64,000 nt of DNA from Isoetes taiwanensis. Lineage: Eukaryota; Streptophyta; Lycopodiopsida; Isoetales; Isoetaceae. Numbering within the stretch: the first letter of the stretch is position 1; every line of letters begins with the position of its first letter. Below, in pieces: positions 4,701 to 63,400 of the stretch. Location of the stretch: contig JAJEKV010000032.1 of NCBI GenBank assembly GCA_021234155.1, forward strand, positions 12,850,283 through 12,914,282. Direction: 5' to 3'. The notes beneath the pieces were generated by a model that was not told where the DNA came from, ran no database searches, and saw only the letters and a program-made list of their open reading frames with translations. The translations under genes and the position numbers were made by a program.

Positions 4701-5237
4701 ACTTTTGGTTTATTTTATAATGACTAATTTACGCTTACGTACTCATGGTGACATGTCACGTGTAACATATAAATACGTGGAACGAAGGGGCAGATGGAGT
4801 GGACTACCCTAGCCATGATCCTATGCCAGCCAATGCCATTGTCATGATTTAGTCTGTTGTTCTTTTAAGGCCCTGACCGTTAGTCGACCCCTTTGAGTAA
4901 GAGTCCAGGGTAGAACCCTTATTTATGATGTATTCTACACGTTATGTTGATATTATATGATGCTCTCTTGATGATTGATGGGCCACCCTTCGAGCTGGCA
5001 TATTACTTATATGTATTGTTGCTAGTGCTAACATGTATGTATGCTTCTACCATATAGGATACCCCATAGAAGGTGTGGGATGAATGACACCTCCGTGCCT
5101 TTCACTCGGATACTTGGCCATCACAAGTGGTCCTAGTCAGACGAAGGGCCTTTCCTTGGTGATTGAGTTGCTATGGGAGGGGAATTTCCCGTATTTATAT
5201 GATGGGAGCATCGTATAGATTCGAGACGCATCACAAT
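1713..5237. other. Long AT-rich stretch without recognisable gene
   Basis: No open frame here resembles a known protein on either strand; the few ORFs are short and AT-biased. A palindromic AT segment lies at about 4620-4665. No RNA gene, array or mobile-element end could be supported. The last 400 bases could be the left LTR of the element whose primer-binding site is at 5238, but no matching second LTR was seen. Confidence 0.5.
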
Positions 5238-5252
5238 GGTATCAAAAGCCAT
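5238..5252 (+). other. Primer-binding-site-like sequence (initiator tRNA-Met type)
   Basis: TGGTATCAAAAGCCA differs at one or two positions from the TGGTATCAGAGCC site used by many plant LTR retrotransposons, where the 3' end of initiator tRNA-Met primes minus-strand synthesis. It would put a left LTR just upstream and gag downstream, where a broken ORF begins at 5838. No LTR pair was found: the 3' LTR start at 11298 has no similar sequence here. This may be the relic of a separate element, or chance. Confidence 0.4.
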
Positions 5253-5837
5253 GATCTTGGTAGACCAGATCATAGCACTGGCCATGTCCTAATTAGTTCG
5301 TTCGAATAGTCTCAAATTACTATGTATTATGCTCAAGTAGCTTAGGTGTACAAGGGATGAGATAATTAGGAAGAGAAATGTTGTAGAAAAAGAAGATGCC
5401 GTGTTGAGGTTTTGCCAATAAGAGGTCACTTGCTCTCAGAGGCCATAACTTTTGGTAGGATTTTGTGTCGTTGCATAGAGGGGACATTTGAATTAGCTAA
5501 AAGCCCCATCGGGAGGCACATCAGGTAAGATATTTTTAGGGTTTCCTTAAGTGTTGCGCTTCCATATTTTTTGAGTTTATTCGATTTAAAAGTCGAAAAA
5601 CATCATGAGCGCAACAATACCAGACGCGTATTTTTCTGCCATGTAAAAATTTTATACATTACAAAAAAAGGAAGTTTAAATTTTTTTTGGGTTGAATGCC
5701 TCTTCCTTCTCACTTTCCTTTTGTATTCCTTAGGAGCTAACCTGCCGCTATAGCCACGGGACTTTGGAGCCAAGCACACCGCCATAGCTGGCTGCTCCTG
5801 CACTCTTACCATAGCTGGACGCTGCCTTAAATCTTCC

Positions 5838-6482
5838 TTGGCATCTATCTTCTCCTCAGCTATGCCTCGTACTAAGCAAGCCCAGAGATATGCTACTTGT
5901 ACGATACCACAACTTTTTGCAGAGCTAGGATTTAACTTAGCCGGGGTCACTGACACTATCGACCTCATCCTTGACCAGGTAGCCCTCCGCTTTAATGGGA
6001 TTCCAGATACACTATCCTGTGTTCCAACTCATGGATGATTTTTTCATAAGCTTAATTCTATGCATGAAAGCTATACACTTGTGCAGGAGCTAGATCAAGT
6101 GCTGACCCTTACTAGACATTACCCTTCACAGATTGAGGCCGTTCGTGTTGAAGCGCAACGGATCATGGAATTGGCAACCACAATAGACGCCCAAGAAACA
6201 GCAGAAGGGTATCTAAAAGTTAGGGGCATCCAATATCTCTACCTGGGAGATGGGGACTGCATCATAGAAGGGGACTGCTTCACCATGCCCCTATACTCCT
6301 ACGATGATATCTGCCAGAAGCTTGTGTGGAAGGACATCTCCACTTACTTCATTCCCGAGCTTCTACAGCCCATCGAGCAGGAAATGGTGACCCATCCTGA
6401 CCGATACCATCCTGAGATGAATAGGAGAATTAACCTCCATCTGGCAAGAGAAAGTCATGCCCAATGGGAAGACCAAACATGA
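5838..6482 (+). pseudogene. Broken ORF of unknown function, one in-frame stop
   Basis: Two plus-strand ORFs (5838-6038 and 6060-6482) share one frame and are separated by a TGA at 6036-6038, so they form one interrupted reading frame of about 215 codons. The composition (acidic and leucine-rich, no membrane segments) looks protein-coding, unlike the surrounding AT-rich DNA. No family is recognised. The position, 600 bases after a primer-binding-site-like motif, would suit a retrotransposon gag, but no zinc knuckle or capsid motif is visible. A histone H3 relic begins 200 bases downstream. An internal MPRTKQAQR from 5862 recalls the H3 N-terminus MARTKQTAR, but the following residues do not continue as H3. 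Confidence 0.4.
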
Positions 6483-6699
6483 CGTTGATCAGCCAGCCTC
6501 GGTCCCTGGAAAAAGAAGGCATAAATATACTATATGTAAGCTCGAGAGTGGCTATAAAGTGTACCTCTAAGCCACGGGTGGAGTGAATAGGACCAAAGCA
6601 TCGGATCAGCGACAGGAACGGGTCCGAGATGCTGACCCCCTCTTCTTGCTATGCAAGCTCCTCCACAGGTGCGGGCTGCACCAAGGAAGCCCCATAGGT

Positions 6700-8519: not shown

Positions 8520-11297
8520 TTCAAGACAGATTAGCACATTCTGCTTCTACTCTACAAGGGGCCTATATGATTGCATCAATACAACAGACAACCGAGTCTC
8601 TTTGTCGTGCAAGATACGGTCACGTGGCTAGTTTGGGACTTCAAATGGTGAAAGGATTACCTATTTTAAATATCATGACCTGCATTGTCATGCATTAGAT
8701 TTGGTAAACAAGTTCAGATTCCATATTCATCTCAAGCAGAATTTCATGGAACTTCACCATTGCATTTGGTTCATTCTGATATATGTTACTTGCCTATTGA
8801 CTCTTTGGGTGGTAACAGGTATTTTATGCTTTTTTATAGATGATTTTAATAGGTTTACATGGGTGTATCCTATAAAACTGAAGTTTAAGCTTTTGCTACA
8901 TATAAAACATTCAGTTCTAGGGTTGAAAATGAGTTTTCTACCACTAATCAAAGTCTTGAGGACTGATAATACAAAAGAGTATTTGTCAACTAAATTTCAA
9001 GCATACTTAGACAACAAGGGAATGCATCAGGAATTGATTGTGGCATATGCACATTCTCAAAATGGGTAGGAGAGCATAGGAATAGTTCATTACTACATCT
9101 GGCACGTAGTATGGGAAAACACAACGCATTACCTTCACATTTTTGGACAGAAGCGGTCATGACTGCAGCTTATGTGTCAAATCATGCACCAACTAAGCCA
9201 TTGAAGCATATGACCTATTTGAGGCATCGTACAAACTCAAGCCAGATATATCTCATCTAAAGTTCTTTGGGTGTTTAGCATATGCCTCGTATCCTCGAGA
9301 AATTTTGCAAGAAAATGAGGGCAATTAAAGTTATTTTCATTGGATATGCTTGTAATATGAAAGTTTGAAGATGCTAAGATCTAGTTCACAAGAAAGTGTT
9401 TGCATTAAAAAGTGTCCATTTTATTGAGGAAAGAGTTTATTCACAAGACTTTTATAAGCCAAATTAAATGGATTATGAGAAGACAGTGTGTAATCTTTTA
9501 TTGGATGGTACATACATGGAAACACAACAAATTGTGACTCGTGATAGTTCACCTCAGGTATCTTCCATTTCTATTCCAATTGAGTTGACGAGCCTATTAC
9601 TACTAGTTCTGTTGAAGGGCTTATGCCAAAGTCTTGCCAATGAAAATAATATTTCATTTTCTGATTCTCATCACGTTTAGCTTTGCTTCCTAAAGTGGAT
9701 TATTTTACAAAATCTGCTTACTGTAATTTTAACAAAAGTGCTTCATGACAAGGAGCCTCTAAATTACCAGCAAGCAGCCAAGCATGACCACTGGATGAAA
9801 GCTATGGAAGAAGAGTTAAATATTTTGCACAAACAAGATGGTACCAATACATTGTGGTAAGAATATCATTGGAGAAAAATGGATATTTCGTACCAAGTAT
9901 CATGCTGAATGGCACAGTGTCCAAACACAAAGCTAGGTTAATAGCTAAAGGTTATACACATCAGGAAGGATTTAATTATAGTGATGTATTTGCTCATGTT
10001 GTCAGGCCGGATACATTAAGGGTTGTGTTAGCATTAGCTCAAGAGTGCCTTTCTGAATGGGGACTTAGAAGAAGAGTTATATATGCAATAACCATCTGGA
10101 TTTATGCATAAGGATAAACTTGAGCATGAGTGTCATCTTAAAAAGAGTTTATATGGTCTTAAGCAGGCACCTAGATGTTGGAACAAAAAGATTAATTCTT
10201 TTATTGTTGATGTGAGTTATGATAGATCACGTGCAGATCCTAATCTATATTTGAAATTTGAAAAAGGCAGAGTACCTATCATGCTACTATGTGTAGATGA
10301 TACCATTTATGACCTGCAGTGCAAATTCTCTTATAGAAGATACTAAGAAGGATCTTAAAGTCACATTACAGACTTGGAATTAATGCATTATTGTGTTGGT
10401 CGGAAAGGTGATAGATAGAAATAGGCATTTTTCTTTCACAACTAAAACATATCTTAGAAGTTTTGGGAAGATTTTTTATGCAAGATTGTAGACCTATTTT
10501 ATTACCTTGTGAGTCAAATCACAGGCTGTCTATAGAAGCTAAGATGTATATGCCACACTTTATATGCAATTAGTTGGGGTATTATTATATATTGAGAATA
10601 CCAGACCTGATATTGTTTATGTTGTGGGGGTCTTGTCAAGATTCATGACTAGACCTAAGGCTCCTCATTGGAAAGTAGCTAAGAAGATGTTACAATATTT
10701 GAAAGGTACAAGTAAGGAAAGCCTTCATTATACTAAATTATCCAATCCCAAATTGAGATTGTATTCCGACTTTGACATGGCTTCTACAAATCTTGAGAGA
10801 AGAAAATGTTTAACCAGATATGTATCTTTCTTTGGAAATAATACTGTCAGTTGAAAGTTAAAGAAATAGGGCTCAAATGGTATCAACACTACTGAAGTTG
10901 AATTAAAAGCTCTAACAATGATTGTTCAAGAGTTTCTATGTCTAGTACATCTTTATGAAGATATTTGTATCTATATCAAACCCGCATACCTATACTATGA
11001 TAATAGTGGGGCGATTTCGCATGCTAAAGACTACAAAATGCATTTGCAAATTAAACATGTGGACATTAAATTATGTTTTTTCAACAACCTCTTGAGAATG
11101 GCAGTATGATTTTGTTATATTGTGCTTATGAAATCAACTTGCAGATGGGTTTACAAAACCATTAGCAGGAAAACAGTTTTCTCACACGAAGGACATTTTG
11201 CATATTTCAGATGCCGATCTCAGACAGGGGCGATAAATTTGTTTCTAAGATCATGTTTGTTAGGTCAAATAATCAGCTATGCTGGTCATCGGGGGGG
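8520..11297 (+). mobile_element. Decayed Ty1/copia retrotransposon (pre-integrase to RNase H)
   Basis: The domains run in copia order. GAG-pre-integrase: ARYGHVASLGLQMVKGLP, about 8600-8660. Integrase: FIDDFNRFTWVYPIK and VLRTDNTKEYLSTKFQAYL, about 8830-9010, ending AYAHSQNG. Reverse transcriptase: HKARLIAKGYTHQEGFNY at about 9930, KKSLYGLKQAPRCWNKK at about 10140 and LLCVDDTIYD near 10290. RNase H: NTRPDIVYVVGVLSRFM at about 10590 and YYDNSGAISHAK near 11000. Integrase before RT identifies Ty1/copia rather than gypsy. Numerous frameshifts and stops, plus deletions between integrase and RT, make it inactive. A G-run at about 11290-11297 fits the polypurine tract just before the 3' LTR. The 5' LTR and gag are missing; the LINE B insertion lies at its upstream edge. 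Confidence 0.92.
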
Positions 11298-37740: not shown

Positions 37741-37915
37741 GTAAGCTTTGGTTTTTGCATGCTTTTTATTTCTGTATTCTTTCATACTTGATAAACATTT
37801 TGGAGAAAAGGAATTCGGATTCTGAAAGTAGATCCAATTTCAGCTTAAATTAACTTCTGCACGTGTCTTTTACTGTGTTCTTTTTTTTTTTCCTTTTCTT
37901 TGTCCAATGTTGCAG
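37741..37915 (+). other. Predicted 5' UTR intron of the MULE transposase gene
   Basis: A strong donor (ACAAACAG|GTAAGC) and a pyrimidine tract ending TGTTGCAG bracket 175 bases; the ATG follows 23 bases after the acceptor. Transcription would therefore start before 37740, in or near the left inverted repeat. Confidence 0.65.
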
Positions 37916-37938
37916 GAATTTTTACAAGGGTTATCAAT

Positions 37939-39645
37939 ATGGAGCTAGTTAAAGGAACAGTATTTGATTCATTGACAGAGGTCAAAAATGCAGTTCGGAC
38001 AGATGCCATTGCATCATACACTGAATTCAAAGTTATTAAATCTGATAGATCACGGTTTAGGGTCAAATGCAGTGATGAGAATTGCACATGGCACTTATTT
38101 GCTTCTTTGATTGGTGAAGGCCCAAGATGTATGATTCGTTCAGTAGGAGTGCATAATTGTGGTGGCAACCAGCAGTTGAGCAATAAAGAAGCATCAGCTA
38201 GTTGGCTGGCAAGAAAATACCAGGAAAAGTTCAGAGAACATCCTCATTACAAGCCAACCGAGTTGATAGATGACTTTCGTAGAGAAGCTGGCGTTACTGT
38301 AACCTATACAGTTGCTTACAATGCGAAGGAAATAGCTATGGGCATCATTAATGGAGACTACAGAAGAGGTTACAGAAAATTACAAGCCTTCTGTCAGAAG
38401 CTTTTAGAAAGCAATCCAGGAAGTAGAGTTGCTCTTGAGGAGAGCAATGGACGTTTTTACAGGTTATTCTTTGCCTACGGAGCATGTTTGACTGGTTTTT
38501 TGAGTTGTAGGCCTTTTGTGGGATTAGATGGCACTTTTCTAACTGGAAAATATGTAGGTCATCTCATTTGTGCTATAGATATTGATGCCACAGGTAGTCT
38601 TTTCCCTATCGCATTCGGGGTCATTGACAATGAAAACACAGAGAATTGGGTATGGTTTCTGCAGCATTTACGCAATAGCTTGCAGGTGGACTCAAGTCTC
38701 ACGTTTGTATCAGATAGAGACAAAGGTTTGCAAGAGGCCCTTTATGATGTTTTTCCTGGCTTTCCAAATGCATACTGCATGAGGCACCTCGAAGCAAATT
38801 TGAAGAAAAAATGCAACAACACTGAGTTTTTGCATTTCTTCTGGGAGGCTGCACGAGTAAACACAGTCCCTGAATATGAAGAGCAAATAAGTAAGATGAG
38901 GAATTTGAATAATGCAGCAACAGATTGGTTATTAGAAACCACACCACCAAATAGCTGGGCTACTGCACACTTCCAGGGGCATCGGTTTGGTCATTTAACC
39001 TCTAACATATCAGAGTCTTTGAATTCTCTATTATTGAATGCAAGGGAGAAGCCTATAATTGCTATGCTCATTGATATTAGACAGGCTTTGATGGAGAGGT
39101 TTCACATACGGGGTACTGAAGCGAAGCAAGCATGGCAATCTGCAGGTCAGAGTGCACCATTTACTTTGGTACCTGAAGAAGAGAAGCGCATAACAGAATC
39201 GACTAATCGTGCAAGGCAGTATAGAATTTTACCATCAGATGGAATTGTGTTTGAGGTAATCACCCCAGAGCATAGACGAATAGTTGATCTACTGCACCAT
39301 ACATGTACTTGTTATGCTTGGCAACATAGAGGAATCCCATGCGCTCATGCTATGGGAGCAATTTTATGGCTGAAGAAACGTCCACAAAGTTATGCACATC
39401 CTGGGTATTACCTGAGAGCATGGCGTGATTCATATGAAGGTGCAGTTTTCCCCTTTGAGGATGTGAGAGATGATGAGGAGACCAATCTGAAACCTCCTGC
39501 TACACGTAAACCACCTGGTCGCCCAAAGAAAAAACGCATCCGTACTGAGGACCGCTTTAAAGAAATACGGCCATACCGCTGTTCTAGGTGTGGCCAATAT
39601 GGACGCCATAATCGTAAGAGTTGCAGAAATGCGATCACGGACTGA
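37939..39645 (+). CDS. MULE transposase with SWIM and CCHC zinc fingers
   Basis: An intact 568-residue frame from ATG at 37939 (MELVKGTVFDSL) to TGA at 39643-39645; the open frame extends upstream without another ATG, into a predicted intron. N-terminal residues about 25-60 (SRFRVKC, CTWHLFAS) resemble the MuDR DNA-binding region. The MULE transposase core follows: FVGLDGTFLTGKY (first catalytic Asp, about 198), FVSDRDKGLQEAL (second Asp, about 258), YCMRHLEANLKKK, and SNISESLNSLL (candidate catalytic Glu, about 358). A SWIM zinc finger (CTCYAWQHRGIPCAHAMG) lies at about 455-472, a basic PGRPKKKRIR stretch at about 525, and a CCHC knuckle (CSRCGQYGRHNRKSC) at about 547-561. It binds the element ends and catalyses cut-and-paste transposition in the nucleus. 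Domesticated FAR1/FHY3 and MUSTANG proteins share this fold, but the flanking inverted repeats show this is the transposon's own gene. A 3' UTR intron (39660-39758, GTATGT...ACGCAG) is plausible. Confidence 0.95.
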   Translation: MELVKGTVFDSLTEVKNAVRTDAIASYTEFKVIKSDRSRFRVKCSDENCTWHLFASLIGEGPRCMIRSVGVHNCGGNQQLSNKEASASWLARKYQEKFREHPHYKPTELIDDFRREAGVTVTYTVAYNAKEIAMGIINGDYRRGYRKLQAFCQKLLESNPGSRVALEESNGRFYRLFFAYGACLTGFLSCRPFVGLDGTFLTGKYVGHLICAIDIDATGSLFPIAFGVIDNENTENWVWFLQHLRNSLQVDSSLTFVSDRDKGLQEALYDVFPGFPNAYCMRHLEANLKKKCNNTEFLHFFWEAARVNTVPEYEEQISKMRNLNNAATDWLLETTPPNSWATAHFQGHRFGHLTSNISESLNSLLLNAREKPIIAMLIDIRQALMERFHIRGTEAKQAWQSAGQSAPFTLVPEEEKRITESTNRARQYRILPSDGIVFEVITPEHRRIVDLLHHTCTCYAWQHRGIPCAHAMGAILWLKKRPQSYAHPGYYLRAWRDSYEGAVFPFEDVRDDEETNLKPPATRKPPGRPKKKRIRTEDRFKEIRPYRCSRCGQYGRHNRKSCRNAITD

Positions 39646-48416: not shown

Positions 48417-48860
48417 TTAACAGAAAAAAAAACTCAAGATAAATACAATGGTTAGTCGGGCTTTCTCAGACTCCTTTGCTGCAGCCTTGTCAAATTTCAC
48501 ATGGGAGCTCTCAAATGCTTCAGCAATAGTGTGCATCGACACTTTTTGTTTGAGATTATCTTTGGTTTTTGGAACTTTAATTTGCCGCTCTTCTATAATA
48601 TCTGTCTCTTTGGACAATAAAGCTCTATAGTGAGGCCCATCGCATGTAAAGCAACCTTTTGTCTAGGTGTAAATTCTATACTGGTATACAGAAAGCACGA
48701 TCCGGACATGTACTTTACGTGCTGAAAGTGCTTAGTACCGTCTGGACTTGTGACGTCTAACAGAATTCCAACAAAATTGGCATATATGAACAATAGTATA
48801 TGCAGCTCCGAATGGCAAGGATCGCTGACTAGGAGCTCCAAAGGCGCGGGAACTCCCATG
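48417..48860 (-). other. Possible retroelement gag relic with zinc-knuckle-like motif
   Basis: Two overlapping minus-strand frames (48593-48859 and 48417-48690) contain KGCFTCDGPHYRALLSKE, which resembles the gag knuckle of plant gypsy elements (GCFLCDGPHRARDCPKR); a CPKR in the neighbouring frame supports a frameshift. The following VPKTKDNLKQKVSMHTIAEA is unrecognised. No protease or RT follows. It is equally possible that this is an exon of an unknown gene. Confidence 0.3.
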
Positions 48861-48902
48861 GGGGGGAGGAGATCGATGGAGTTTCCTTTAGTGATAGGCG
48901 GG

Positions 48903-48999
48903 AGAATTTAGAATTTAGAATTTAGAATTTAGAATTTAGAATTTAGAATTTAGAATTTAGAATTTAGAATTTAGAATTTAGAATTTAGAATTTAGAATT
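48903..48999. repeat. (GAATTTA)n heptanucleotide microsatellite
   Basis: Nearly 14 uninterrupted copies of a 7-base unit, flanked by GAATTG/CAATTC palindromic sequence (48995-49080). Not the plant telomere repeat TTTAGGG. Confidence 0.95.
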
Positions 49000-49115
49000 G
49001 CAATTGGAGAATTGCAACTCCGATTTACACAATTTGAACAAATTTTGCATTGTTCCAATTGAATTCTCAATTTAGAATTGTAATTCAAGTTGTTAAATCT
49101 ATCTCGTGAATTTCA

Positions 49116-52100
49116 ATGGATAGCTCCCCTGAAAGCATCGACTCAACCAAAAGAAGGATTTTCTTGCAAATTCAAACTGAAAATGGAAGAAAATCTCGAG
49201 AGAGGAAGAGACGGACAGGGAAGAAAAACAATCCTCCTGCCAATAACAAAGATTGTGGTGTTTTGAGTGAAACAAGATTCCAGGAATTGTCAAAGAATTT
49301 GGAAGACTATTTCAGTGAAATTATAGATAATTTTTCCTCAAAGGTAGACAAAGGAAAGGCAGTATCGAGATTCTTCAAGAAGATCAAACATCTTCCACTA
49401 GATGTTGATGTGGCTAGATGTTGATGTGGCAAATCCAAAGGAAAATGCCCTTATGAGGAATTTAATTTTGAATGTGAAAGAGACTTTTTAAGCTTAAAAT
49501 TATGATAGAAATACTGATGTTCTTCAAGCGAAAAGGAGTACACTACAAATGGCTGCACCTTCAACAAAGGGAGTGAATTAATTAGCAATGGCAAGGCTTC
49601 TGTCTATTTCAAGAAGAATTGTGGCAGCAACATTTCAGAGACGTGTGTATGCGGAATTTGAAGCAGGTCCTTGGTCAATGTTTCAAAGGAGAAAAAGGTC
49701 TGATGCACTTTCAGATGAAGCAATAGCTAAGGTAAAGAATTTTTGGGATGAGAATACTAGGATCTCACCATATAAAAAACATGTGAAAAAAAAAATGTGA
49801 GTGAAACAGGTGAAAAGATTGACCATCCTATTCATTTGCTGTAGGCGGTACAAATAAGCACTTTCTGCAAATTTTCTTTCTGTATTTTGCATGATAATGT
49901 TGTTGAACCTATGTTATGATCAGTTGTAGTTCTATCTTCAATTCAAAAAAGAATATCTTGAGTTCAATATATGTCAGCAAACTTTTGAGAAGCTTAAATC
50001 CTAGCTATATTAGGAGATTGCAAGAAAGAGAGACTTGCTGCTGCCAGTACCACATGCACCTTGATTTTGTCATGCAAGCAATTAATAACATGAGGTATAA
50101 TCCATATAGTGTGCATAATGATTGCAAATGCACATGCAGAGTATGTGGTCAGGGTCCAACAAGCAATGCTAAGGACAATATTTTCAAATCTACAAGTGAG
50201 TATTGGAGAAACGTGGTATGTCCCAAAATAGAAGCGGATGAATGGCACAAACATGCATGTTTGATGCAAACCTGCAAGAAATATGGTCTCAAGAGGTAAA
50301 TGACTAACATGTCCCATTTATTGTTTAACTTTGCAATTCTTTAATATCTAGCTTCAATATTCTCTTACAATACTTTCTCTACTCCACTTTATACAGGATG
50401 GCAAAGTGTCCAAGGGAGAGCAGTAAATCATTAGAAAACTTGGTGGATTGCAAATTTTTTGAAAAAGTTAGTGTCGAGTTTGTGGTAGGAGGCTCACGTC
50501 ATTTATACTTGTGGATTCTACTACTTGCAGCAAGAAGCCGTTTCTAAAAGAAACCCTAAGAAAAAACCAACTAAAGTTACAAGGTTGGCCTACAAGACTG
50601 ATACCCCTTTTGAATTTTAGGAACATGCAAGAAAAACAATGGCCTCATTTGTGCCACACAACTACAATGCTCATTGGTAAGCCAAACAATTCAGACAATG
50701 TTTGGGAAGTTTTGGAGAAGACATAATAGTTTTTATAATTCATTTTGCATAAAACTATGGTTTCAAAATTCAGCAGGAAGCGCAATCATGTCACTGGTAC
50801 AATGATCAGGTATCCACTTTAGTTCATATCACTTACAGGTTTGGAAGGACACACATAAGTTATGAAAGATAAGAGGTGGATGGCAATAACATCAAGAAGA
50901 AAAGAAAAGATATGAAGCAAAAGGATGATAATAGAGAAATTATAAAAGACTGCCACTTCAAACATGCCACTTCGTTGGAGGCAAATGGTATTCAATATTC
51001 CAAGCATTACGTATGGCCAGATGGTTGTTCATCTGAATTTCAGTCTTCAAGACCATTCTATTTCTTAGGTAGGTGGTACAGAGATCATGGGAAGGAGATT
51101 ATTTGGAATTTTTTTGGCAGCTCGCATGGAAAAGGTGAGCATGATGGCCAAGGAGCAGTGGTAAAAAGATTTCTCACAAAGGAACAACTCAAGTATAACG
51201 AAAGAAAACTCCAATGTGCTGCAGATGTGGTTCGATTTCTAAATGGATTCTTTACCAACAACTCATCTGATTCTGATATACATAAGTAAATACTGTCACA
51301 TGTAAGTACTTAAAGCACTTGAAGCACTTATACCTGTATTTTATAGAAATTATTTTGCATGCTTTTTACGTATGTTTGTGATAATTTAATAGTTTTGTAC
51401 ATATTGAATTTGATTTATGTGCAAATATAATATTTTGAACTTTATTTCTTTCATTCTTCTTGAACTTTTTACTTACCTTTACATCATTTAGGCACTTTTG
51501 AACATTTATTGCATGCAAGTTCTTTTAGGAAATCGATCCTCAGAGTATAGATAGATCAGAAAGGTATTATGCTCAAACTCTCAAAGGAACAAATCAAATT
51601 CATTGCATTCGGCATTTTTATAGAGAAAATCCTTTGAAAGTTGCGCATAGACCTTTGTCATGTTTTTGCATGTCTTGCCAGCAAGGAAAGCAGGTCTCTT
51701 GCAGTATCAAATCTCCTATAGGAGGTTGGGTGACAAATGAGTTGGTTCCAACAAAAGCACAGCTACGGGAAATTCTTGAAAATGACATAGAGTCTGAAGA
51801 TGAGGAGATAGATAGTGAAGATGATGGTGACCATGAACTGATCAGTTCTAATGTGGAAGTAGGAGACAATTTTGCAGTAAATACAGAGGAAGACAATGAA
51901 GAGGGTGTAGACTTTTATGTCCTAAAATGTATTGAGCCCCAAAGAACATATTACTAGATAATTATGAAGATAGCTAGGGTTGTTTTTGGAATTGGTGAGG
52001 TCATACTTTCTAGATACTATTACAAACAATTGGAAGGAGAATTAAGATTTCAACTTCTTCAAGACAAGCCACTGGCTACAGTCTGCAGCCACCTCGTTAG

Positions 52101-52200
52101 GCTTGGCAAATTTAGCATGACTTTGGTGAAACATAACTTGTATAACATGGATGAACAGACATACCAACAAATAATGAGTAGCATGTCTTCAAGTTGCTAA
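49116..52200 (+). pseudogene. Decayed intron-containing transposase-like gene, invertebrate-type family
   Basis: Exon-like blocks, in order. 49116-49800: RRIVAATFQRR, KVKNFWDENTRISPYKKHVK. About 49975-50299: LNPSYIRRLQERETCCCQYH, CRVCGQGP. 50399-51289: MAKCPRESSKS, TDTPFEF, HNYNAHW, KQFRQCLG, FKIQQEAQSCHWYNDQ, WPDGCSSEFQSSRPF, WNFFGSSHGKGEHDG, GAVVKRFLTKEQLK. 51524-52200: GTNQIHCIRHFYRENPLK, HRPLSCFCMSCQQG and a C-terminal YYYKQLEGELRF. I associate this architecture (SP.KK, C.CxYH, DFAENY.F..QNE.Q..HW, DG....F, W.FF..SHGK...DG.G..VKR, RPLSCFC..C) with an uncharacterised RNase H-like/transposase-like family abundant in cnidarians and other invertebrates. Lesions: a 16-bp duplication at 49399, in-frame stops near 50617, 50677, 50743, 50870 and 51955. 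GT-AG boundaries argue against a retrocopy. Confidence 0.6.
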
Positions 52201-52680
52201 CAATTTAGAAAAATAGTGATTAAGTTGTATGTACGTATGAAAATCATATCAGTGTAAATAGAGCATCAATTGTGCAAAAAAGATCTAAAATATTCACTGC
52301 TTCACCTGGAAATTTGCTATTTTCATCCAGAAAACTTAACCAAACATGATCATGTTCATATTATATATCATCAGAAAGATCCCAGAGAGGGCTTTCCAAC
52401 GCAATAAAAAACACATAAAACAGAGTTCTAATTCAAAAGCTATGATAAAAAGCATAGTACCATCAAATCTGCACTTTGGAAAAAGGTATTCGGATTGAAA
52501 TTTACAAAAATCACGTACTTATCTTGATAGATCTGGGTGAAGTTATATGCCAATGGAAAGCTCTCTACATATCTTTCCAAAAAGCCCAAGATTATCTGAA
52601 TCTGACTTTTGTAGCTCAAGTTATGAGCATGGAAACAACTTTGACATTCTCTCTTTAGGGCTTCTCTTCAACCCATGAGA
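52201..52680. other. Spacer without recognisable gene
   Basis: AT-rich. The 60-codon ORF at 52476-52658 is unrecognised. Confidence 0.4.
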
Positions 52681-55600
52681 TTTGATCCCTTGACTGATGA
52701 TATATTGCAGCTGCGTCCTGCAGAAGCAGCTTGGCCACGGACATCAGATGACAATCAGGTCACACGCTATGGTAGACAATTGCTTTTGCTCTGTGGTATC
52801 TTTGACCTGGTAATCTGCAATGGACCGGCACGGTGGCCGATCCACCCTTAAAGAGCACTTGTAGACAGGAAAACCAGGGGGGAGGATCTAGCGTGGTGGA
52901 CTATGTGCTGGTGCCTGAGCAGGATATGCATGTCGTCAAGCACTTCCAGGTGGGAACAACTAATAGGGATGAAGAGATCGACTCAGACCACTTACCACTT
53001 TACTTGAAGTTGGCTTGGCAGGTTGTGCGAACCCCCTGTGCCACAACTCCTCACATGCCTCATTTGCGATTGGATTATGAACATGCGGGGCTTATGCCCG
53101 GATGCTTATAGATGACCGGCAGAAATTTTGCAATATCCTACACTAGAGCAACGAACGGCCGTTCTACCGACCGATGTGCTTAGGGACTGCGAGAGAGATG
53201 CTTTGGGATAAGCGCCCGCGACGGACCTCCAGAACACAACCTTCCCACGTAATCAATGGTTTGATGCGAGTGCAAGGAACACAAACGCCGGCTCCGCCAA
53301 GTCCACGCACCATTTTTACGCCCACATGCGGTCCGGACAATACCGCGTCTTCCTTAAAGATAAGAAAGCCGGTACATTGCAAAGACATCAAAGGGAAATG
53401 TTTTATCTCACGGAACGTCACCCCGGGACCTTCCTCGGGCGAAGGGTTCTTAGAAAGCGATGATGACCCACGGGGAACATCACTCCCGGCGGTGGAGGCA
53501 ATACTTGCAACAACTATCGACCCTCGGGGTGCACATGCGGCATTACCCCCGCAAGAAGGCCCGATCTTTGGAAATCACAGATTCGGGCGTGGAACAAGGC
53601 TTACGGCGTCTTGCCAATGGGAAAGCCCGGACCTGGATGGCATGCAAAGCGTAATTGCTTAAGTGGGCGGGGCCGTCCATAATACCGATCTTGCTGACCG
53701 CCTTGTTCAACAAGGCATTCTGAGGAAGGCTTCCGATGCGATGGACCAATAGCGAGTTGTTCCCATCTAAAGGCGGTGACCCAGACCGCCCCCAATTACC
53801 GAACAATCATGGTCGGATTCGGTGTTTGCAAAATTGCTTGCTGGGATTCTCGAGCAGCAGTTGACGGGCTGGGCAGAGGCAGCAGAGATACGGGCCCTCA
53901 CCCAGGCAGGATTCAGACCCCGACACTCAACCATTGACCACATCTTCACATTGCGAGCTCTGGTTGAAGCGGCCGAGGAACCGTCGGGATCTATATTGTT
54001 GCCGTGGATTTTGCAAAGGCATTTGACACCGTGCCTCGGGAAAAACTATGGGCAAGATTGCGGCAATTACCGGGGTTCCGGTAGATTTGCGAGAATGCGA
54101 TTAATGCGGGCTTTATGAAAGATGCTCTGTCGGTTTTTGCGGCCGACAAGCCAACCATTTGATAGTAGTATCGGGGTTCGCGGGGATGCCCTCTCTCCCC
54201 AACATTGTTTGGGCTTTACATTGATCAATTAGAGAGCTGGCTTTGGCGATAATGGGGGCGACGGGGCTCACCTTCTCTACCGGATCATCAAGCGGTTAAT
54301 ATATCGATGATGTGGACCTCTAGCTTACACACCAGCGGACATGCAACGACATCTCGATGCCACGGACACATTTTGTCAAGCAAGCGATATCTTGGCGTCA
54401 ACTTGGCCAAGACTAAGGTGGTTTTCATATCATCTTCACGACGGTAGGATCCCCTCCTTCCGATTCGAGGGCGAATGTGGAAGTAGCATCCACATACAAA
54501 TATTTGGGAGTGGAGTTTCCGTCTACTATGCCTTTGGGACACATCCATACTGACTCACGAAGTTATTTACACGGGCTGGAAAGCACTATATGCAATGCAA
54601 AACAATAGTCATAGAGCGGAGTTGTATGATTGGACCCATCAGTCACACTGTTCAAAGTCTTAGTGGAGCCCGTCCTTTTATACGGGGGTGGAAGTATGGG
54701 GCCCGATGAGTATCCCTCGCTACTTGGAATGACTTGGAGCGGTGCGAGAAAGCCTTCTTGGTAATGCGAGCACTAGGGGTGAAGTCCACAGTCCCATATC
54801 AAATTCTCTTGCAGAAGCGGGATTCTTGCCTCTTTGAGGGCGGCCCTTGATCGCCACATTGTCTATTTTCGGAAGGTGGTCAACATGGACGATGCTCGTC
54901 TCCCAAAACTAGCTTATATCATGGCAATGGGGCCACAGCGCCTCAAGGCCTCTTTGGAGGGAAAAGAGAGCTCAATGGATGGCTAGATGGAATGTGCGGG
55001 AGGAGGTGCATACATGTGCAAGCGAGGCGGTCGCCATAGCTTGAGGCAATATCTTGACGCTTGCTTCATCGGCAAGCTTTGGGATGCCAGCGCCCTTGAA
55101 CAGTCAAGGCAAAGACACTACCCGGCGCCACATAAATCCCACATTGGAAGCGAGGCCCACAATGCTACATGCGCACCCACTTGCCCATGAAAAGACCTTG
55201 GACTCATTGCCTCCATTCGCGAGGGGCACATCATCTTCGAATTGAGACAGCGGATGGATTGGTGAGCCACGTCGGGGCGGAGCTCTGTCAACGCCGCCAA
55301 ATGGGAGTCATTGAGGATGAATCTCATACCCTTCAAAGTTGCCCAAAGATATGATCAAATCCGGACGCGCTATGCCGAGTTGGTCGCCCGCCCAGCCGCT
55401 ACATGTGACATTGAGCACGCGGCATCCGATGCGGATGCTAGGATCATACCGCCGAGGAGGTCATGGACATGCGAGATCAGCTATGTCCTCGGGCACACAC
55501 TTGACATGTACATACACATTTATTTCATGATGATGTATACTTGTACAGTTTGACAGCATTCTTATTACTGCCACGGTTTTTCCCTCGAAAACCCTTCGGG

Positions 55601-60424: not shown

Positions 60425-63400
60425 TTTTTTTTTTTTTGAAGAACTGTGTCATCAATATATTAAAAGAATGGTAATGTTACAAAGCAAGTGAGGAGGAAGG
60501 AGAACTGCCCCAAAGAGACAGCGATACCTCGACACTCCACAACAAACTCACAGAAAAACTGCAACTCTACTGCTGTACAAACTGACCATCACCATCTACA
60601 ACACCCAAGAAGTCCCGCCAAATGGCATTCCACTCTACTACTCCCGGGAACACCAGAAAGCTTTGAAATAGCTTGTACCTGAGTCGAGGAATCGAGAGGC
60701 CGCAGCCGCCAATCCCCCGAAAGATCCACAACCGCCACCGCTTCCAAATCAGCCACACCAACCAAGCCACGACAAATGCAAGGCTTGCCGCAAGAGCCAG
60801 CCAAGCACCAGATACACATGAAGCAAAGAATCGGCCGGGCTAGTCAATCTCACCAAAGCAGAGCCCTAACCCAATCCGTGCAGTACCGCAAGTGAGGGCA
60901 TAGAACCGCATAATGCTCCACGGTCTCAACGATGAAGGCCACAATAAGGGCGCAGAGAGGGCTCACACCCGCCTAAACCGACTCACAAGGGCATTCACCA
61001 CGATACAACGGTGCACCACCGCCACGAAGCACCCTAACCTTAGCCCGGTGGGGAAGTGAGCTCCATGTCCACGCCCAAACCGAAGCGCCATCGAGAACCC
61101 GGAAAGCCGCAGAGACCACTTGCTGTTCAAGGGGCAAGTGTGTCATGAATAGCCAAAGACCCGGTAAGAAGATCGCACAAAGCAAGAAGACACAACATCA
61201 GGATGAACCTTCCAAACCCGCACCACCACATCATCCCGAGGGACTATAGGTATGTGTAGCGGAAGACTCCCCGCCACGTGTTCCCGGATAGCTTGGCCAC
61301 GCCCCTCGAAAGCGAGCTTCGAAAAAGAACTCCCATGAAGCTAGCCGACCACCCCAATACCAATCCTCCAAGGTGAGCACAGCTTCGCCTCCAACGGGCT
61401 CAAGGTCCGAGCATGCACAAGTGGGTGCCCAAGGGCAAGTGCTTGCAGGGGGTAGAGGAACCCACAAGAAAGGAGAAGAGTGGTGATAAACCGAGGCATA
61501 ATCCCATTTGGAAGAGCACACGCACATGATCCCAAGCCCGCAACACTCACGCGGAGAAAAGGGGATGCGTGGGAAAGGTGGGAGACCATACAACAAAGGT
61601 GCCAGTGGCAACTCCACATGCATGCAGACGGTTTCCCAAACGCCACACAATGGCGAAGAGATCGGCAACAACAATGGCCGCACTGGGAGAAAATGCTCCA
61701 TCCTGCGAGAATGCTCCAAACAAACTTGGAGACCAACACCTTACTATGCAATACCAAATCCGAGAATGGCCAAGCCCCCATCCTCCCGGGCGGAGACACT
61801 TCCACCAAGCCACTTTAACAACTACCCCTTCATCATCCCCCCACACAAAATTTGAACAATCTTATCCAAAGCCACGTATCTTACCCTCGGGAGCTAGCAT
61901 CGCAGATGTTTGATACACATGAGTGCTACAAAATCCGACTTGGCAATAGTGATCCTACACCGCCATGGACAACTTGCTACCCTTCCACCAATTGAGGTGT
62001 TTTACGCAACCCTGCAAAATCTCATCCCACACCCTCCCTATGGAAACATCCCCTCCAAAGGGATACCCAACAGACTTAGTACACACATTACCCCGAAAGC
62101 ACCTTCCAAGGGAATAGAGCCAAACAAGGGGAGGCGAAGTCACCGGGCCCATAATGCGAGCACTTACCCCAATTCGAGAAGAATGCCACGAGGCCAAGGA
62201 GAAAGTATCCAACAAACCCATCACATTCCATAAATTCCTCTCTTCTTCCACCAAGAAGAGGAAAGTGTCATCGACAAACGGTTAATAATCCATTTGGCTA
62301 CCATCCCGCATCCAAGCCCATCCACCACTCCCTCCTCCACCGCAGACCAAAAACAATCGGAGGCGGTGCCCCGCCCAATCGTAGAACAAAAAGCGGCGCC
62401 AAAGGGCACCCCTCACGCACCCCTCGCCTAAGGAGAAAAAAAGGGAGGGTTCACCCTGGCACACCACCAGTAGCCCGCGGCCGACCTATGCGACTTCATG
62501 ACTATCTCGTAAAGCGTGGACCACAGCAACGCGCTAACATCATGGCATAAGAACTCCCAATGGACACTATCGTAAGCTTTGGCAAAGTCAAGCTTAAGAT
62601 AGGCAATGTCTTGACTCGTTCTTCCGCCCAATAAAGGCCCTCATAAGCCGTGGCAACATTAGTCAAAATGTTCCTCCCGGGGACAAACCTGGATCGCACC
62701 TTACTAATGGAAGAAGTCAACACCGGCTTCAACTTCTCTGCCAGGGGCTTTCGCAATAATCTTATACAGGAGGACAACAAGGAGATAGGCCTCCAATCAT
62801 TAATAGTAGAAGGCTTCTTAACCTTAGGAATCAAGGAAATGCATGCGGTATTCAAGATCTTATCCATTTGAGAAGACTGCAAAGAACTCAAGATACACGG
62901 GTACACCGACTCACCAGCCCACTCCCAATAAGTCCGAAAGAACTCCACGGGGGGATACCATCCAGCCCGGGACATTTATCCTTGGCCATGCACATACATG
63001 CCGCCGCTAAATCCTCTCTCGGAGAGCTCCCGCTCCAAGCTCTCTATTTTGTTGAGTCGAGAATAGATGGCTTAATGACCCCCAAAACAAGCTCCCCGCA
63101 TCTCGCTCATAAGGAAGAGTGCGCTTGTGCGAAAAACCCCGAGAAATGGGCATGCACATACCTCTCGCAAATCAGCGGGATCCTCCAAACATTCGTTCTC
63201 GTTCCCATTCCCGCTCCTCGTTCCGTCCCTCGCGTTTGCCTTCAGATTTTGGGTCAAAGTTCCCAAAAAGTTCCCGTTCCGGGTAACTATGCTCCAAAGT
63301 CCGGCCATCATGCAAAGCAAGGGACGCCATAGATGTTGTATATCGCCGCTGCCTAGCTGCTCTGAAGAACACCGACGAACTTGTATCCCCCTCCTTCAAC

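Follow-up and report, generated by a model that had tools for sequence, protein, structure and literature searches.

The subject of this analysis is a transposon remnant in a 64-kb window of the land plant Isoetes taiwanensis (contig JAJEKV010000032.1), the window being one stretch of the 1.66-Gb assembly of 1110 contigs that was searched as a whole. The locus is best read as the remains of a cut-and-paste DNA transposon that is dead and truncated on the right and that most likely belongs to the Sola superfamily; we assign this reading a probability of roughly 0.78. Other copies in the same genome show inverted ends, 4-bp target-site duplications, a transposase with three invariant aspartates, and a predicted second gene on the opposite strand whose product would combine a RING-H2 motif with a NIF/FCP1-like domain. 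The window locus in itself is unremarkable, a dead copy from a superfamily that is probably known, and the conserved convergent second gene is the unexpected part of the finding.

The remnant in the window and its relatives

A first-pass annotation of the window had listed six motif blocks in a fixed order and assigned them to a transposase-like family. All six are present in the reading frames of the + strand in the expected order: ISPYKKH lies inside 49582-49800, CCCQYHMHL inside 49907-50299, HWYNDQ followed by DGCSSEF/WNFFGSSHGKGEHDG in an exon read at 50516-51286, and HRPLSCFCMSC inside 51529-51957. This order is not due to chance: the best other genome match of a 138-aa block has E = 1.2e-66, and the exons of the copy L011 align one after another to the window. 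The feature is larger than the six blocks, starting at a left terminal inverted repeat and extending to the point where homology to other copies stops (Table 1). Comparison with those copies by blastn places the right half of the element, second gene included, outside what the window retains.

Table 1. Parts of the transposon remnant, with window positions, strand and the evidence on which each was read
Feature	Position	Strand	Evidence and remarks
Transposon remnant, group A (left end and transposase gene; right half missing)	48665..52208	+	consecutive blocks across 48666-52208 align by blastn at 82-90% to the group A copies L011/L012; gap 48923-48979
Left terminal inverted repeat AGGTGTAAATTCTATACTGG...	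48665..48693	+	A in place of the first G of GGGTGTAAATTC, the form in other copies
Short tandem repeat of ~7 bp, (TTTAGAA)n, between left end and transposase start	48909..48999		sequence; blocks aligned to L011 break there
Transposase exon 1 (ISPYKKH; weak helix-turn-helix match in L011)	49116..49853	+	short duplication near 49414-49430 shifts the frame; AT instead of GT at the first splice donor (49854)
Transposase exon 2, Cys-rich (CCCQYHMHL...CKCTCRVCG)	49930..50295	+	boundaries inferred from AG/GT and homologues
Transposase exon 3, short (MAKCPRES...)	50397..50466	+	boundaries inferred by eye
Catalytic exon (D1 position, D2 DGCSSEF, D3 HGKGEHDG)	50531..51285	+	four in-frame stops, 18-codon deletion
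C-terminal exon (HRPLSCFCMSC and acidic stretch)	51520..52200	+	one in-frame stop (TAG, 51955)

The window copy is dead, because its transposase gene carries stops, a frameshift and an 18-codon deletion, the first aspartate of the triad (D1) is replaced by His (IIHFA*, against VIDFAENYG in open copies), and the right half is missing. It retains 106 of the 133 residues that are identical across five open copies. Measured against positions where three group A copies agree, the window shows 2738 matches, 287 changes and 125 gaps, and among the changes G>A (64) and C>T (44) occur most often, as would be expected of methylated, decaying repeats. After its insertion, the copy would have lost its right half and decayed.

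The 138-aa block has at least 183 matches in the genome (150 of 5747 first-look candidates scored) and the 336-aa catalytic exon at least 122 (120 of 9618 scored), and a large share of the dispersed copies carry internal stops. The plant setting that the annotation had assumed is borne out by the NAM (NAC) domain, which has 91 exon-level matches in the same genome, a modest number that would fit a non-flowering plant. Four diverged groups, told apart by identity and ends, were recognized among the copies: group A comprises the window and L002-L014; group B, itself diverse, L015-L017, L074 and L077; group C L075 and L076; and group D L078, L081 and L082. Group D was read from L078, which has both ends, and from two incomplete copies (L081, L082); L078 matches the catalytic profile with E 4.9e-41, and L082 is 55% identical to the L011 exon over 200 columns.

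Five copies were read end to end, namely L013, L015 and L016 (~6.9 kb each), L011 (~7.4 kb) and L078 (8.2 kb). The proposed search for intact copies with terminal repeats thus yielded copies with terminal repeats in groups A, B and D, and none among the copies read was shown to be intact throughout. In L011, a direct duplication of ~0.37 kb (5203-5567 and 6185-6552, 90% identical) takes in the start of the last transposase exon, and L002 and L009 have a similar arrangement. Moreover, some element pairs have identical flanks on different contigs (C1038/C1050; C907/L016), and large duplications or haplotype copies therefore exist in the assembly.

Transposase gene, element ends and superfamily

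In open copies, the transposase gene encodes, in order, a basic N-terminus, a weak helix-turn-helix (HTH) match, the motif ISPYKKHVRKH, a Cys-rich exon, the catalytic exon, and a C-terminal exon with HRPLSCFC..C. The HTH match is to HTH_23 on exon 1 of L011 (E 0.0017), and an IS21 model matches exon 1 weakly (E 0.028), both below cut-off. The catalytic exon of open copies contains VIDFAENYG, CHWHTDQVSILVHITYR, SDGCSSQF and WNFFASSHGKGEHDG. Across five open copies from groups A-C, 133 of its columns are invariant, all three aspartates among them (D91, D205 and D246 in L017 numbering). In the case of L078 from group D, D1, D2 and HGKG are kept and the reading frame breaks before D3. Hydrophobic strands precede D1 and D2 and a helix-like stretch follows D3, an arrangement that would fit an RNase H-like core. 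The annotation's proposal of an RNase H-like nuclease stands as far as the order of the Asp blocks is concerned; for the fold, which we infer, no credible solved relative was found by sequence.

The transposase gene appears to have introns, as the annotation had also read it, because GT donors sit at the same codons across copies. The donor of exon 1 is GT in 6 of the 7 copies matching the patterns (AT in L075), that of exon 2 in 8/8 (groups A and B only), and that of the catalytic exon in 14/14, window counted.

Relatives of the transposase were sought widely. Pfam and NCBIfam scans covered the window exons and the open exons of other copies; the best match of the catalytic exon, Pro-kuma_activ (E 0.0029), is below cut-off and was taken as chance. 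The N-terminal profile gave no result against PDB sequences. No credible relative was found in phages (tblastn), and 13 plasmid rows at E 4 are chance. Viral contigs returned 16 stretches by protein, 36 by alignment and 0 by motif pattern, and prokaryote genomes 81 by alignment, none of them a relative. A further 24 prokaryote stretches found by motif pattern encode proteins whose best score with the transposase profile is 9.6 bits; four of these reach E < 0.01 in a tiny set, but were selected by the same motif, and were taken as chance. In the literature searched, the transposase motif strings led to unrelated papers only.

In groups A, B and D, the element has inverted ends of ~25-39 bp that start with GGGTG (GGGTGTAAATTTGATATTGGTACCC and related sequences). 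A genome-wide search with queries from group B gave 405 candidates for left and 104 for right ends, of which 40 rows each were scored. Where a left and a right end fell on the same contig, they were matched up manually; C920 has two right ends, and the nearer one was chosen. A perfect 4-bp duplication was obtained by a fixed cut in 11 of the 16 end pairs read. These pairs reduce to 14 distinct sites, since flanks are shared by C1038/C1050 and by C468x/C468y, and C907a corresponds to the inverted flanks of L016. Perfect duplications are found at ten of the 14: the fixed cut gives nine, and the tenth is C907a, where the right end had been cut one base short and L016 shows AAAA/AAAA. Further perfect duplications flank L011 (TCTT; right end taken from L073), L013 (ATAA), L015 (ACTA) and L078 (TCAT). 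Where both ends were read, the 4-bp target-site duplication is thus perfect at 14 of 19 distinct sites, the chance of a single 4-bp match being ~1 in 256. The copies standing outside this count are L010, L012, L014, L017, L074 and L082, for which a single end was found in the piece, and L075, L076, L077 and L081, for which no end was found. The duplications read (ACCT, TGCC, ATAA, TTTT, ATCT, TATA, AGAA, TCCA, AAAA, ACTA, TCTT, TCAT) reveal no fixed target. A multi-copy element with inverted ends, 4-bp duplications and a D..D..D exon agrees with the transposase-like identity first given to the blocks.

The Sola superfamily (Sola1, Sola2, Sola3) was reportedly defined by Bao et al. 2009. Membership of another superfamily, perhaps an unnamed one that also makes 4-bp duplications, is less likely than Sola. 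The transposase lacks a credible Pfam or NCBIfam match, the comparison with Sola is one of described features, and the second gene was not found in literature searches aimed at it, all of which would suit such an origin. The named alternatives differ from the element: Ginger, which also makes 4-bp duplications, has TG...CA ends and is ruled out by the GGGTG...CACCC ends found here, while piggyBac and Kolobok, whose target is TTAA, are ruled out by duplications that vary without a fixed TTAA. EnSpm/CACTA elements (CACTA/G ends, 3-bp duplication) are ruled out by the GGGTG ends and the 4 bp, and Mutator/MULE elements by the 4-bp duplication together with the lack of any MULE match at E<=1 for the exons. 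Meanwhile, the 4-bp duplication without fixed TTAA, the putative DDD-type exon, the size and the ends all agree with Sola as the available text of PMC10741241 describes it.

A recent horizontal transfer from an invertebrate is improbable. The first-pass annotation named putative cnidarian and arthropod relatives, and Hydra is reported, in the accessible part of PMC12220107, to carry Sola-2, an occurrence that would suit a cnidarian link and is no proof of one for the present sequences. Synonymous sites nevertheless argue for long residence or several old arrivals: by Nei-Gojobori counts (NG86), the coexisting groups A, B and C differ in their catalytic exons by pS 0.72-0.93 and pN 0.20-0.32, with pS so near saturation that the ratios are rough. 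Sola is, moreover, reported across land plants. The annotation's expectation of few plant records did not hold: the occurrence in a plant is not new, because the available parts of the sources place Sola in the moss Physcomitrella, where PMC10741241 adds that it is seemingly uncommon in flowering plants, in the ferns Azolla (PMC6786969) and Ceratopteris (PMC6890710), in the conifer Cryptomeria with 56.7 Mb of Sola-2 (PMC11539532), and in Capsicum (PMC7076952; PMC9033089).

The convergent second gene

The second gene lies in the right half of the element on the strand opposite to the transposase, with its start near the right end, so that the two genes converge. Its predicted product comprises a coiled-coil-like stretch recognized by eye (Pfam matches below cut-off only), followed by a RING-H2 motif, a basic region and a NIF/FCP1-like domain; the coding region may represent a single spliced gene or two genes. 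The right half of L015 and L016 is fragmented, its pieces being recognized by eye. The NIF domain (PF03031) scores above the gathering threshold in all groups: 3.6e-14 in L011 (A), 1.1e-12 in L017 (B), 1.7e-16 in L076 and 1.2e-16 in L075 (C), and 1.7e-20 in L078 (D). Its best matches among solved structures are UBLCP1 and FCP1, both weak (E 0.011 and 0.08). The RING-H2 (C3H2C3) spacing C-x2-C..C-x-H-x2-H-x2-C..C-x2-C is read in L017 and L076, and the open frame of L015 begins inside the motif; zf-RING_2 matches at the same place below cut-off (E 0.00068 in D, 0.04 in C, 0.18 in B). Against solved structures, the RING profile returned nine rows (best E 0.0093): eight carry RING/E3 protein names, and the remaining one is the AT5G66160 protein, which we take to be a RING-H2 protein.

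NIF/FCP1 phosphatases of the HAD type carry the catalytic motif DxD. In all seven copies read, from four groups, the first HAD motif is DxN instead: DLNG in L011, L013, L014 and L017, DING in L075 and L076, and DVNG in L078. A host CTD-phosphatase-like gene with BRCT domains (L080) reads DLDH at the same site. By analogy with HAD enzymes, loss of the second Asp suggests that phosphatase chemistry is altered or lost.

To define the association between the two genes, two sets of 50 top NIF rows (50 of the first 51 in one list, a second piece of one locus being dropped, and the first 50 in the other) were compared with 197 transposase rows (150 from the 138-aa block and 47 from the catalytic exon). 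A listed transposase row lies within 8 kb of 35/50 and 31/50 NIF rows, 66/100 in total, at median distances of 1.8 and 1.7 kb in the two sets, where a random locus would pair with a probability of 0.0019. In all 66 of 66 pairs, the NIF domain is downstream of the transposase on the opposite strand, with none in another geometry. An origin of the NIF/RING gene as an independent neighbour or a nested insertion, and not as part of the transposon, is very improbable. NIF rows without a transposase among the rows listed (34/100) and a locus with a NIF domain and no transposase match (L079) would be expected on that account, and are outweighed by the geometry, by the position of the gene inside the two terminal repeats in group A, B and D copies and on the corresponding side in group C, and by its divergence alongside the transposase with pN below pS. 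The uniform geometry also rules out a captured neighbour.

The NIF domain seems amplified in this genome, with at least 151 PF03031 matches (150 of 3263 first-look candidates scored), many of them outside the transposase rows listed. Of the PF03031 loci read besides L078, L081 and L082 are group D pieces, L080 is the host-like gene, and L079 is a different locus. In L079 (4382-8428, - strand), the NIF-like domain (E 8.5e-21) has DMNG instead of DxD, and neighbouring open frames have no significant Pfam match; it is maybe another repeat family using the same domain.

Between groups, the second gene has diverged at synonymous sites to a similar level as the transposase. The NIF region of A versus C gives pS 0.78-0.81 and pN 0.44-0.46, and the coiled-coil/RING region gives pS 0.72-0.80 and pN 0.48-0.55 in alignments of only 30-36% identity, the weakest of these comparisons. 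With pN below pS in both genes, the counts read as the pattern of elements kept functional through transposition. Close copies (pS < 0.16; eight pairs with a defined ratio, two genes) have NG86 ratios of 0.57-1.85, as expected if single copies decay after insertion. More distant group B members have ratios of 0.08-0.29, while L015 or L016 versus L077 allowed no ratio. Retention of the second gene in groups whose synonymous sites are near saturation suggests that it is of use to the element.

A host gene family or domesticated transposase, as donor sites at conserved codons and strong conservation of the catalytic exon between groups might be taken to indicate, is the least credible account, given the dispersed matches with their many internal stops, the inverted ends with target-site duplications, and the close-pair ratios typical of post-insertion decay.

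Mechanism, neighbouring repeats and comparison with known systems

Several observations weigh against the reading of the locus as a Sola element with two genes. No ends were found in the group C copies read, and the spans between paired ends range from 6.2 to 14.3 kb and are not uniform. The duplication is lacking at 4 of the 19 sites (C1060a, C920, C907b and C1105) and mismatched at one (L009, TGAT/CGAT). The catalytic exon has no credible match among Pfam, NCBIfam and PDB sequences, and its RNase H-like fold is inferred. Membership in Sola is thus probable on anatomy, that is, on duplication length, ends, size and triad as compared with a description of the superfamily. The introns and the second gene are predicted from genomic sequence; about a third of the NIF rows stand without a listed transposase, and the DxN site argues against a working phosphatase.

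In the mechanism that we propose, the transposase would bind the inverted ends, and its RNase H-like domain would cut and rejoin them with a 4-bp stagger. The second protein would be a retained partner acting on the host or on the transposase, in which the RING part would be a ubiquitin ligase and the DxN site would bind phosphate or the CTD instead of serving a normal phosphatase. A bolder proposal, which we hold to be rather unlikely, is that the elements form a lineage with two genes, possibly distinct from Sola proper, whose transposase could not do without the RING-H2/FCP1-like DxN protein. This partner, retained in at least four deeply diverged groups of one genome, would serve the element as a ubiquitin ligase and pseudo-phosphatase of its own, either by opposing host silencing or by linking transposition to RNA polymerase II.

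Other repeats are found in the window. To the right of the remnant, 52650-54000 resembles by eye fragments of a LINE-type reverse transcriptase, as does sequence beside the right part of L012; the one frame scanned in this region (53147-53659) has no Pfam match. At 37849-39642 (+), an uninterrupted 598-aa frame encodes a Mutator-like transposase with MULE (PF10551, E 1e-21), MuDR DNA-binding, Transposase_mut and SWIM domains. Weak retroelement domains, both below the curated cut-off, are an rve integrase core at 8632-9066 (+, E 3.1e-6) and RVT_1 at 62505-62975 (-, E 7.4e-6).

Many-copy elements of this kind, whose transposase has no credible counterpart in Pfam, NCBIfam or PDB, likely stay 'uncharacterised' in annotations. 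The second gene raises the question whether DNA transposons encode proteins of their own to modify host silencing or transcription, and to our knowledge, ubiquitin and CTD-phosphate signalling domains are unusual cargo for a cut-and-paste transposon. A RING/NIF second gene in a transposon found no mention in the literature searched, aimed searches included, most subscription journals lying outside its coverage.

Compared with known systems, the element is closest to Sola, which the available text of PMC10741241 describes as having a DDD transposase, 4-bp duplications, a length of mostly 2-9 kb and ends of 11-1124 bp. The inverted ends and the copies read here fall within these ranges, and three invariant aspartates in what would be an RNase H-like order (groups A-C) would correspond to the DDD type. 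Occurrence in a non-flowering plant is likewise shared, Sola being reported also in cnidarians and, in the accessible part of PMC10294476, in bivalves. The convergent RING-H2/NIF gene sets the element apart, having no mention in the portions of the Sola descriptions available.

Two converging genes that start near opposite ends are also the layout of MuDR, the autonomous Mutator element of maize. Mutator duplications, by contrast, measure 7-12 bp according to the available text of PMC10741241. Kolobok (DDD/E) lineages carry accessory proteins too, one of them on the complementary strand, which in the accessible part of PMC9587614 are nucleases, a helicase or KolX, in contrast to the RING-H2/NIF product found here. 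The element further differs from Kolobok in target, TTAA in the latter versus no fixed target here. Finally, the second gene shares its PF03031 domain with the FCP1/SCP (NIF) CTD phosphatases and its RING-H2 spacing with ubiquitin ligases, while the transposon copies of the NIF domain read DxN where the host CTD-phosphatase-like gene keeps DLDH.

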